64,000 nt of DNA from Lumbricus terrestris (lineage: Eukaryota > Annelida > Clitellata > Crassiclitellata > Lumbricidae). The stretch covers positions 24,516,456 to 24,580,455 of the forward strand of contig OX457038.1 of the NCBI GenBank assembly GCA_949752735.1, in the 5' to 3' direction. The translations under genes and the position numbers were made by a program. Position 1 is the first letter of the stretch, and every line of letters starts with the position of its first letter. Under the pieces are notes generated by a model that saw only the letters and a list, made by a program, of their open reading frames with translations, had not been told where the DNA came from and searched no databases. Shown here piece after piece: positions 35,901 to 41,900 of the stretch.

Positions 35901-38900
35901 GGTACATAAACTCTCCTATTTGCAAGTGCCTAATTTGATCGATCTTTAATAATCCAAATTCCTTGAAATACAGAGCGGTGTGGGCTCGGCGAGGAATATT
36001 AGCTATAAAACGGATTGCATATTTTTGAAGGGTGACTAGTCTGATAAAATTAGATTTGTAAGTAGACGTCCAAATTAAATTACAGTAGGTTAAATAAGGA
36101 TGAATAAGAGAATAGTATAGGATAGACCGGATAGAGACAGGAATCAGTTTAGATGAGCGAAATAGCACACCAACAGTCTTAGCAATTTTGCTAGAGATAT
36201 TATTGATGTGTTCCTTCCAATTTAGATACTGGTCAATGTATATGCCCAAAAAAATTTGTGGATGTTACTTGGGTGATAGGAGTCCCTTCAATAAGTAGAA
36301 TAGGAAGTTCATTGGGATATTTTTTCTTATGGGATCTGAAGAGGATGTAGTTGGTTTTATCCAAATTTAGAGTAAGTTTATTAGATCGAAACCAATCAAC
36401 GACTCGGTGAAGCTCAGAATTAACAGTGTTGAATAGGGTATCAATAGATTTATCAGAATGAAATAGGTTAGAATCATCAGCAAATAGCACAAAATACATA
36501 GAAGGCGATACATTGGGTAAATCATTAATATAGATTAAAAATAAAAGAGGTCCAAGATTAGATCCTTGAGGGACACCATGAGAAATGAGTTGTAGATCAG
36601 AAGTACAATTGTTAATAGAAACCAGTTGAAAACGATTTTCAAGATAGCTAACAAACCATTGTAATTGTGTCCCTCTAATTCCATAGTTATAAAGTTTTTT
36701 GATCAAAATATGATGATTTACAGAATCAAAGGCTTTAGCTACATCAAGGAAGATACCAAGGGAGTATTCGTTATTTTCAATTGCATTAGAGATTTTGTCT
36801 TGTATGCTTAGAAGGGGCATGTAGGTAGAATGACCCTGTTGGAATCCATGCTGAGACTGAAATAGTACTTTCTCTTTTGATAAAAAAAACTATCTAAACG
36901 TGCATACATTAATTTTTCAAATATTTTGGCGAAGAATGGGAGTACAGAAATCGGTCTGTAGTTAGAAACATTGTCCCTCGGGCCCTTTTTATGAATGGGT
37001 ATGACCTTGGCAGTTTTCAATGCAGAGGGGAATACTCCAGTGGTAAATGAGCAGTTGACAATCTCTGATAGCGGAATTGCAATTTTAGGCATTTTTATTT
37101 ATTTATCTTATTTTTAATAAGAGAACCTAACCAGTGGACCCTATTATATGCTTACCACCTAAATGATATCAATATCTAAATGATATCAAATTATTTGCAT
37201 AAGTTTGTAGATCTCATATGCCTGGCAAACTGTATCAATTAAGGTTCATTTCTCCTTCTCTATCACCTAATGCCATAATTACTTTGATATATCATACCTT
37301 TGTTAGTATGATGTGCTTTTATACCACTACTGCAAAATTACGACAATCCCTCTCTGATTCTCTGTCTCCATTCCTTGCCTTCCTATAAATCGCCCCTCCC
37401 CCTACTTACCTGATTTCCTACTTTTAACTGTGACTGGGCCGGGAGCGCCTCTGAGTAGGTTTCTAGAAGAGGTGCTATATAAATTCTCTAAATGAATAAA
37501 TTTCCCTTTCTTCCCCTTCTGTCTTACTGCTTGCCTCCCAACCTCTTTCTGCTCCCTGTCTTCCTCTCCTCCCTTCCCTCCTCCCTTTCTCGCTCTCTTC
37601 CTACCTCTCTGCATTTCTTTCCACTCCTTCCCTCCTGCCTACCCAATTTGCTTCTCCATATAATTTGCTTTCATCCTTATTGTTAATAGACACCAGGTGC
37701 TGGAAAGGCTAAAGTTCAGTCAGCAATTCACCTAAGTCTTGATGTCAGAAATCCAACAGCAGCTGAACTTCGTAAGTTATTTGTTAACAACTTTGTCTAA
37801 TTAATAGTTGAGGACAGTTGTATCTTTCTCCATTCTTGCCGCCTCTCTGACATTCTGCAACCACTCCTTAGTCACTCAATGCTCCACCAGCTCGTTGGAA
37901 GAGATTCCCAAAATGTCTCTGTCAATATGCTTATCCTCCTATAATTATTACCTCCTAATTTCAACTCTCCTCTGCTTGCACTCACCTCTGCTACTTTTCA
38001 CTCACTACTGAAGGCAAACTCTTCTGATAATCCTATTCTGATTCTACTCCTGCACCACCACACGACCAGCATCATCACTGATTACCACCGTAGCTGTCTC
38101 CTTGGCTTGAACTCCCACATTTTTGACCTGCCACCAGAAGAACAGGGCAGTTTGGCTGTTGCAGACTTGACTTGATTAGCGGTGGTAAATAAGTGAGCTG
38201 GTCTCTCTGACATGGCTTTATGGTATACCCCGCAGTCGATCGAGTCGATCGATCGAGTCGATCATAACTCGGCCAAGTCGAGTCGATAGAAAAATCGTCG
38301 ACTCGATCGACTTGCAAGTCGAGTCGATCGAAAAATCGTCGACTTGCAAGTCGAGTCGATCGTGAGTCTTGCTTAGTCGAGTCGATCGTTGTTTCATCTA
38401 TTCGACTAGATTTAGAAATATTTTACTTAGGCCTACTACTTTTTAAAGTCTCAAAGTGACCGTATACATGATATAATGACGGAATTCAGTTTTTGCACAC
38501 AAGTTCGACTCGAACTTGCTAACGAACCTTTTGGCAGCTGGCGATTTCGTGTTAGTGGAGCTGTGAAAGTTGACTATAGACGCACGTTTTCGATTTGAGT
38601 TGAACGAATATAGGGGCGGATAACGAAATTTTGGAAGGGGGTGGACAAAATTTGTGGTCCTGGGCCGACAAATTTTTCGTTGGTCTTCCGCCAAAAGAAT
38701 TTTTTTAGTCTTTCGCCCAAAAAACTTCTAAAAACCCGTGGCGACTCAGGTTATTTAAAATCTGATGACTTTATTAATCATGTACTAGGACTATATATAC
38801 TTTCTTTCCCACCTTCCTGTTCCCGTTGCGTTGATTTACAGCTTCTTGAAACCTGATGGAGGGAGGGACCACGTCATATGCGAATCTCTGAATTGGGCAT

Positions 38901-41900
38901 GCCGGATTGGCCCCTTCCCTGGATTCGCTCCTGAATGAGCATGATACAGATCTACTATTTATATGCCTGTATGCAAGTTATGTAGATGTTAATTTTGAGA
39001 ATATAAAACTGGACCTTTTATGACGTCACTTCGATTATGATACAATTCTACAATTAAATAAGTTCACTGAGAAAACGAAATTAGGCCTATTGTGACGTCA
39101 CTTAGATCAGGACACAGATCTGCTGTCATATTATTTCATTAATGTTGAGAATACAGAACTAGGCCTACGCCTATTGTAACGTCACTCTGATTATGATGCA
39201 ATTTTGCTATTATATTATAAGTTCACATCGAGAATTAAAAAACAGCGCCTATTGTGACGTCACATTGATTATATGATACAAATGTACTAGGCCTATTATG
39301 AAAGTGCATTTTGAGAATATAAACAAGGTCTAATGTGACGTCACTTCGATTATGAGACAAATGTACTATTATAGAAGTGCATATTGAGAATATAAACAAG
39401 GTCTAATGTGACGTCACTTCGATTATGAGACAAATGTACTATTATAGAAGTGCATATTGAGAATATAAACAAGGTCTACTGTGACGTAACTTCGATTATT
39501 ATACAGATCTACCAGTATATTATGTTCATTTTGCGAATATAAAACGGGGCCTTTTATGACACCAGTCACGTCACTTCTATAGAAGTGATAATACAATTCT
39601 ACTATTAAATAAGTTCACTGAAAAAACCGAAACTAGGTCTATTGTGGCGCCATTTCGATTATGATACAGATCTGCTGTCATATTATTTCATTTTCATAAT
39701 ACAAAACTGGGGCTGTTTAAATGCAACATCGCTCTGATTATGATACAAATCTATTATGATACGTTCAGTTTGAGAATATAAAACTACACATTTTTTCGGC
39801 CCAAACTATCACATTGTGACGTCACCTCGATCATGATACAGACCTACTATTAAAGAAGTTCATTTTGAGAATGAAAAAGTCCTATTGTGGCTAACTTCGA
39901 TTATGATAATGATCTGTTATTATAGAAGTACATTTTGAGAGCATAAACCAGGCCTATTGTGACTAACTTCGATTATTACACAGATCTACCGTGATAATTA
40001 TTGAGATTCATTTACATAATCTAAAGCGAGGTCTATTGTGACGCCACTACGATTAAAGTGCAAATCTATAAATTCACTGAGAATACGAAATTAGGCTTAT
40101 TGTTACGTCACACAGATTTATGACACAGATCTACTATCGTATAATTTCATGTTAGGATCAAAAACTAGGTCAGGTCGACGCGAAGTCGATCGAGTCGATC
40201 GTCGACTGAGCCAAGTCGATCGAGTCGTCGAGAGGTCGGCGAGTCGACGAAGTCGATCGAGTCGATCGTCGCACGAGCCAAGTCGATCGTAACCCACGAC
40301 TTGATCGACTGCGAGGTATACTTTATGGGCACTGGCAAATTTTCAGAGATTTACATTACGTTAAATTACATTACACTTGTGGATACACAAAGAGAAACAG
40401 AAATTATATCCTTTGTAAAGTACTATGTGCTATTCATAAGGATTATGCTGGAAACAGGAAGTAAGTTTTTACTAATAATGACAAAGAGCACAAACACTTG
40501 AAGCACAAGGATAATTAAATTTGATTGCAAAACAATTTGGCTTAATGACACAACATAAATAGATACATCAACATATAATATACCCCGGGTATGCTTAGTG
40601 ATCAGTGGTGAGCAATTATTGTCATAGTCAACAATGCATCTGACTTGAAATCGAGCTAGTGTGCAACTATTAGCAGGCAAATGTAAAGTGAACAACTGTT
40701 CAGGAGCAGTTGACCACAGCAATTTATTAGGACTGTGTAAAATAGCATTTTTATCACTCACCCAAATATGGTAAACTAAATACAATATTCAACTTAATAT
40801 GACCATTGACCATAAAGAGTAGGTAAAAGCAGAAGTGATATAAGATAAACAAACTTGATTTAAAATGGCAGTGAAATTCTATGAATAAATATTTTTAAGT
40901 GTTTAGGGGTCTAATACAATTTACGGTACTTTTCTGCAGTTATTGAGTTTATCAAAGCTTGCAATCTAAATTCTGAATGCAAACATAAGGTATAGCTCTA
41001 CAATTTAGGCTTTTACTTTTTGCTAGTTTAGCTTCTACTTGCAACTTATTATTCTATTTGTACTACGACTATTGCCATGTTATGTTGAATATATTTAACA
41101 TGCTTATGCTGCAATGTGTGGTGTCCAATCTAAAATTGTCAATAAACTTTGTGAAGCACCAATTAATTTTGGTCTGCTTAGATGTTGTCTCACTTGACAC
41201 ATTATCTGTTAACATAGCGGAGGTAGTGGTGGACACAGACTCTTGTGAAAGTCATAAAATATCATGTTCAATAGAACAACAAGATGCTCAAGGAGTTGCT
41301 GATTTAGGACAAATAACTGAAAAAACGCTGTAGGTGTACATTAGCAAATTGACCCTATGGCTACTTATGGCCAAGTTTTTATGACTGCATGTCTTTATAT
41401 AACATTCTTGGAATAAAGTTCCACAATCCACATGCAATATTTTTGGGGAAATGAGAATCTTCGGAAACAGATGAATGATAGTTACAAATTTAGGATAATA
41501 AAAACTGGGATGACACTGTTTGCATAATTATGAGCATTTACTAAATAAATGGAATCATGGATTTGGCAGAGCGCTATGGTGATGAAGGTGATCTTATGTA
41601 AATGTTGTGAATTTAGCCACTGTAAATTGATTGATACATTGCAAAACTGTCGTCAGTTCATCTCAAAGATCCTATAATCTCAGATCTCTGTTCACGCATT
41701 TCATCCACAGAACCAACAGAATATATTGAGTTTAAGAAATTACTTTAAAAGTTGCAAACAAACCATATTGAAACCATTGTATTCCCATTGTGTTTGTAAT
41801 AATAGTTTCAAGTATAAAGAAACGTAGACACAGGACCTCCCCATGAACTTGCAATGTTAGATAGTTTTCTGTGCTTTCACTGCTTCTCTTGCACCATTTC

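Follow-up and report, generated by a model that had tools for sequence, protein, structure and literature searches.

Evidence for a family of non-autonomous DNA transposons carrying a satellite of CREB/ATF-type octamers in Lumbricus terrestris

A 2,097-bp element in the annelid Lumbricus terrestris very probably belongs to a large family of cut-and-paste DNA transposons that are non-autonomous. It occupies positions 38224-40320 of a 64,000-nucleotide stretch of contig OX457038.1 (assembly GCA_949752735.1, positions 24,516,456 to 24,580,455), which is called the window here, and lies between exact copies of CTTTATGG. Its interior is a satellite, some of whose units contain TGACGTCA, the canonical CREB/ATF octamer or cAMP response element (CRE). 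In most copies read, this satellite makes up the body, and it has spread together with them. DNA transposons that spread satellites are known; what stands out in this case is that consensus CREs form an array in the body of an abundant transposon.

The family is classed among non-autonomous terminal inverted repeat (TIR) transposons because its ends are shared by dispersed copies, the target duplication has a fixed length of 8 bp, and the window copy has no transposase. A preliminary description of this stretch had proposed a mobile element with an exact 8-bp duplication and an octamer-bearing satellite. That proposal is supported, and the boundaries and inverted ends that it gave are exact.

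Structure of the element

The ends of the element are inverted and take the form TATACC[C/T]CGCAGTCGATC... over about 24 bp. An 18-base end pattern, TATACCNCGCAGTCGATC, is found at 38224-38241 on the plus strand and at 40303-40320 on the minus strand, where shuffled sequences are expected to give 0.09 matches with up to three mismatches. Inward of both ends lie GTCGATCG-type arrays. Those on the left and right are related, and both are self-complementary; each folds on itself better than all 200 of its shuffled versions (z of -6.2 on the left and -4.3 on the right). The term “foldback”, used in the preliminary description, fits only loosely. The short inverted ends and self-folding arrays agree with it, but the arrays are not long mirror copies of each other, and the true inverted repeat covers only about 24 bp, with 92% identity.

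A profile search recognizes 16 satellite units, where about 14 had been proposed. The proposal that nearly all of them hold the octamer was generous. Exact copies of TGACGTCA are present in six units (at 39021, 39093, 39255, 39336, 39409, and 39817) and copies with one mismatch in five (at 39177, 39482, 39566, 40039, and 40103). In the other five, the octamer has at least two differences or a deletion, or this part of the unit is absent. The six exact copies are the only ones in the window, for which 0.46 would be expected. The element is also rich in CpG, with an observed/expected ratio of 1.47 compared with 0.51 for the window. The window copy is without coding capacity, its longest frame starting with methionine being 58 amino acids. 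The coordinates of the parts are collected in Table 1.

Table 1. Parts of the element and its target duplications in the window.
Feature	Position	Strand	Basis or remark
Left target-site duplication CTTTATGG	38216-38223		Exact match to 40321-40328
Left terminal inverted repeat TATACCCCGCAGTCGATCGAGTCG	38224-38247	+	Inverted-repeat and end-pattern searches
Left GTCGATCG-type subterminal array, self-complementary	38233-38400	+	Repeat count differs among copies
Left interior between array and satellite, about 540 bp without satellite	38401-38936	+	Common to the three other full copies aligned (L002, L003, L004)
Satellite array, 16 units of about 73 bp	38937-40171	+	Profile search
Right GTCGATCG-type subterminal array, units of about 67 bp	40172-40310	+	Repeat, fold, and alignment analyses
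Right terminal inverted repeat	40297-40320	-	Inverted-repeat and end-pattern searches
Right target-site duplication CTTTATGG	40321-40328		Exact match to 38216-38223

A dispersed family

Evidence for other copies can be provided by searching the host genome for the ends, as the preliminary description had suggested. In 1,056 Mb, with at most one mismatch allowed, the end pattern has 1,535 matches (777 and 758 on the two strands). With the reversed pattern as a control, there are none on either strand. If the ends pair, the family numbers about 770 recognizable copies. The positions listed are those of the first 100 end matches, all on contig C1.

Three full copies (in loci L002, L003, and L004) align with the window copy from end to end. 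Pairwise identities among the four range from 87.5 to 96.9%, and their flanks diverge exactly at the element ends. Target duplications were read at 27 end pairs: 13 in loci L001-L028 (up to three mismatches), one in L059, and 13 on C1 for which both ends were fetched. An 8,182-bp pairing in L059 links the ends of two elements and was left out of this count. The duplication is exact over 8 bp at 22 of the 27 pairs, and a further pair agrees in 7 of 8 bases.

The sequence of the duplications shows at most a weak preference. Among 23 duplications read on both strands, position 2 is T in 22 of 46 cases; the target preference of hAT transposons is nTnnnnAn. Target duplications of 8 bp also occur in KDZ/Zisupton elements.

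The satellite and the ends were also compared from the side of the satellite. Within L001-L028, which were cut around satellite matches, 13 loci have both ends, 10 have one end, and five have none at up to three mismatches; L001-L008, which are included in this tally, are only 3.3 kb long. The first 100 genome matches listed for the satellite block TGACRTCACTTCGATTATGA form 61 clusters on part of contig C1.

Four observations weigh against the assignment to a cut-and-paste family whose satellite moves with its ends. First, four of the 27 end pairs have no duplication (L016, L022, L049/L050, and its apparent duplicate L051/L052). Second, positions 743-8263 of L009 and 1-7521 of L010, on two contigs, are 99.8% identical over at least 7.5 kb. 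This identity extends past the end of the element, so some copies have spread passively, the satellite having been copied within a larger repeat that also contains an 83-bp tandem array. Third, 26 of the 61 satellite clusters have no end within 2.5 kb among the matches listed, and two of these hold seven matches each over 3-4 kb. The satellite thus probably also lives apart from the element and is not strictly tied to it, although some of the clusters may be old copies with decayed ends. Fourth, no autonomous partner was found in the loci read, among which no search aimed at P transposase was made.

Two of these cases have further features. The elements of L049/L050 and L051/L052 (C1:24547757 and C1:24608050) are equal in length, lie 60 kb apart, and have identical flanks that do not match across the element; they are probably a segmental duplication of one copy. 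The repeat shared by L009 and L010 joins three parts: the 83-bp tandem array, a segment of unassigned type, and a satellite element with a single end. Stretches related to this repeat occur in L005, L007, and L008.

Transposase and mechanism

No transposase was recognized by eye among frames of at least 140 amino acids in L001-L059, and the four frames that were compared with Pfam all lie outside element sequence. Three long end pairs on C1, each read in part, were rejected as candidates for an autonomous partner. The stretch C1:20390225-20400769 (L060) contains a frame for a retrotransposon-type aspartyl protease, and C1:28610400-28618581 (L059) pairs the ends of two different elements. For C1:31182582-31191892 (L061), 2.5 kb from the middle holds no frame that is convincing by eye. 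Beside an unpaired element end in L055, a 220-amino-acid frame at 435-1094 on the minus strand matches PF10927 (DUF2738, 75 bits).

In the mechanism proposed here, a transposase supplied in trans would recognize the TATACC...CAGTCGATC ends, and the GTCGATCG subterminal arrays would probably offer it additional binding sites. Insertion by a staggered cut of 8 bp would then produce the 8-bp duplication, and the satellite would travel as cargo inside the element. The octamer, together with a neighboring block around GATTATGA, appears weakly retained. The simplest explanations are that both helped the element during its active period or that units convert one another. Use of the octamer by the host as a CRE is possible.

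Retention of the octamer

The number of octamers proves nothing by itself, because repeats that descend from one ancestor share motifs whatever their use. The comparison made here is between the rate of change of the octamer and that of the rest of the unit. Several measures show it to change less often. Across 417 aligned units, 181 of which contain the exact octamer, mean conservation of the octamer columns is 0.907 compared with 0.845 overall. For the array consensus, based on 16 plus-strand units, identity between units is 0.866 in the octamer columns and 0.768 elsewhere, and the octamer window ranks 6th, 3rd, and 5th of 72 on three conservation measures. In 38 copies, 152 of 3,757 octamer cells differ from the majority (4.05%), compared with 1,915 of 30,193 cells elsewhere (6.34%), a ratio of 0.64 (0.55-0.73, bootstrap over copies). 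Where TGACGTCA is the consensus, in nine slots, 223 of 268 cases have an unchanged octamer. This is the best of 81 offsets (0.83), but offsets +1 and +12, the latter corresponding to GATTATGA, reach 0.82, and a second block is conserved equally well.

The effect is strongest at CpG. Decay of the CpG of a CRE through methylation has been described (PMC1796609). Between copies, with 13 octamer slots counted, changes affect the octamer CpG in 13 of 406 cells and other CpGs in 151 of 793 (site-level p=1.2e-5). Restricting the comparison to the nine other CpGs in an ACG context gives p=0.0018, or p=0.027 if only changes to TG or CA are counted. Private CpG changes number 6 of 406 and 42 of 793, respectively. 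The result is similar in subsets of the elements: the octamer CpG is lost in 9 of 268 cells compared with 79 of 510 for other CpGs in 24 elements found by satellite similarity, in 4 of 135 compared with 72 of 279 in 14 elements found by their ends, and in 11 of 361 compared with 128 of 707 in 34 non-redundant elements.

Short patterns were counted as well. Genome-wide, the block TGACGTCACTTCGATTATGA occurs 1,103 times and a version with R at the G of the CRE 1,130 times, which leaves 27 blocks in which the CRE CpG has changed to CA. In L001-L059, without removal of duplicates, 63 blocks are intact, none has the CRE changed to TG, and one has it changed to CA. The neighboring CpG is changed to TTTG in 24 and to TTCA in six, where the TTTG form is ancestral in one slot. 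Loss of the CRE CpG is apparently rarer than that of CpGs at a distance of nine bases.

One explanation for this retention is that the octamer is a passenger, kept similar by gene conversion and shared ancestry among the units. Some columns that are identical in all units likewise seldom change, and conversion from unit to unit leaves no trace where units agree. A control for conversion therefore counts only bases that are absent from every unit at the column in question; its p-values treat events as independent, which those in related copies are not. Under this control, octamer events number 36 compared with 383 elsewhere. The ratio barely shifts, from 0.64 to 0.67 (p=0.011), which speaks against the passenger explanation, as do the strength of the effect at CpG and the agreement of the split samples. 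On the other hand, the octamer window then takes 4th place of 72, on a par with columns 18-25, and under the control significance is not reached when only private changes are counted (p=0.066 for the octamer, p=0.064 for its CpG). Taken together, a passenger octamer is a serious possibility that falls just short of an even chance.

Another explanation is that the octamers are working CREB/ATF-type sites. Binding of basic leucine zipper (bZIP) proteins to the array in the germ line or early embryo might hold the element in an open, unmethylated state and thereby aid its movement or its action as an enhancer at the insertion site. This is possible, if rather improbable. The CpG counts favor it, including the ACG-context comparison and its repetition in the end-found elements, and CpG events remain depleted under the conversion control (8 compared with 23, ratio 0.39, p=0.012; transitions only, 2 compared with 9, p=0.035). 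A precedent is the long terminal repeat of the mouse intracisternal A particle (IAP), likewise a transposon sequence with TGACGTCA. The IAP is described as driven by its CRE through methylation-sensitive CREB1, which binds when the site is unmethylated (PMC9729108). Its CRE differs in belonging to a retrotransposon promoter and not to a satellite in a DNA transposon. Points against working sites are the private changes given above, the non-CpG part of the octamer, which is not significant under the control (ratio 0.75, p=0.079), and the equally conserved second block.

It also counts against working sites that TGACGTCA is common in the genome anyway. The flanks and window together contain 13 copies in 192,692 bases, compared with 1-4 for each of nine control palindromes, in a sample that is small and non-random, counts the duplicated L009/L010 locus twice, and includes at least one copy (L020, position 1097) that is itself a satellite unit. 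The idea that the family's CREs dominate the genome was rejected, since, judged by their density in the flanks, other copies of TGACGTCA would number in the tens of thousands. If the small flank sample is representative, most consensus CREs in the genome would come from outside the family. A local concentration occurs in DNA flanking an element in L058, where positions 530-574 hold three copies of TGACGTCA within 45 bp.

A third explanation is that the octamer block is a binding site for the transposase or for a host factor on which transposition depends, so that selection would act on the element only. The better-kept stretch spans TGACGTCA and GATTATGA, as a bipartite protein site might. However, a 759-bp member in L059, which shares these ends and is flanked by an exact duplication, lacks TGACGTCA entirely, which indicates that the array is not required for insertion. 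Such a structural role is unlikely.

The preliminary description had named two grounds for its own rejection, that no other copies share the ends or that the octamer decays as fast as its unit. Neither applies: other copies share the ends, and the octamer decays at a lower rate than its surroundings in the unit, but after the conversion control the difference is only modest, and the second block is kept equally well. Retention of the octamer is likely, though modest; it is graded no higher because gene conversion between units could explain part of it.

A far-reaching version of the working-site explanation, and a doubtful one, is that CRE arrays are built into the life cycle of the transposon. 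Arrays bound by bZIP proteins and escaping methylation would leave copies accessible in the germ line, and several thousand consensus CREs would have been sown in the genome (a mean of 6.1 TGACGTCA in 14 two-ended copies, multiplied by about 770), with one array between TNF-ligand exons. More generally, an abundant transposon with such an array, whose CRE CpG is apparently lost less often than nearby ones, would offer a natural way to test whether CpGs are protected by factor binding and whether transposons can distribute a signaling-responsive enhancer in bulk.

Relation to known elements

The family can be called foldback-like or TU-like in a loose sense. The TU elements of Strongylocentrotus purpuratus, attributed to Liebermann et al. 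in 1983, are reportedly of the foldback type, with 8-bp duplications and tandem repeats in the outer inverted ends; their middle segments are said to vary and to occur elsewhere as well. By this description, the family resembles TU in its loosely foldback type, 8-bp duplications, tandem-repeat ends, and variable middle. It differs in that the inverted part is only about 24 bp and the middle is the octamer satellite.

Further similarities are found in three published accounts. The Tetris foldback of Drosophila virilis is apparently non-autonomous and modular, has satellite-linked internal tandem repeats and duplications of 8-10 bp, and, like the family, has no reported autonomous partner. By description, it differs in its inverted ends of up to 1,735 bp, and its authors assign it to Mutator (PMC4079207). 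Merlin elements share duplications of 8-9 bp and internal tandem repeats. Their ends begin with GG, whereas those of the family begin with TATACC, and a Merlin origin is therefore disfavored (PMC8101967). The TCAST elements of Tribolium are another case in which a transposon-like, non-autonomous element disperses satellite DNA, and 29 of 68 TCAST-like elements lie in introns. They differ in having a 3-bp duplication in some copies, and the text consulted describes no CRE-type octamer (PMC3411249).

No description of the family was found in searches of the literature on TU elements, foldbacks, 8-bp transposons, and CREs or tandem repeats in transposons, which did not cover the original TU papers.

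Insertion locus

The window copy likely sits in an intron of a putative TNF-ligand gene, as predicted from reading frames. In the preliminary description, the element was proposed as a possible source of cAMP-type regulation for this gene. The frame at 54009-54308 scores 22.9 bits against Pfam TNF, just below the cut-off of 23, and matches ectodysplasin structures with E=0.003-0.005. Two other frames, at 29600-29926 and 52200-52523, have no match in Pfam and are putative further exons of the same gene by reading of the frames only. About 1.3 kb before the element, positions 36233-36889 of the window contain a reverse-transcriptase fragment on the minus strand (PF00078, 94 bits).

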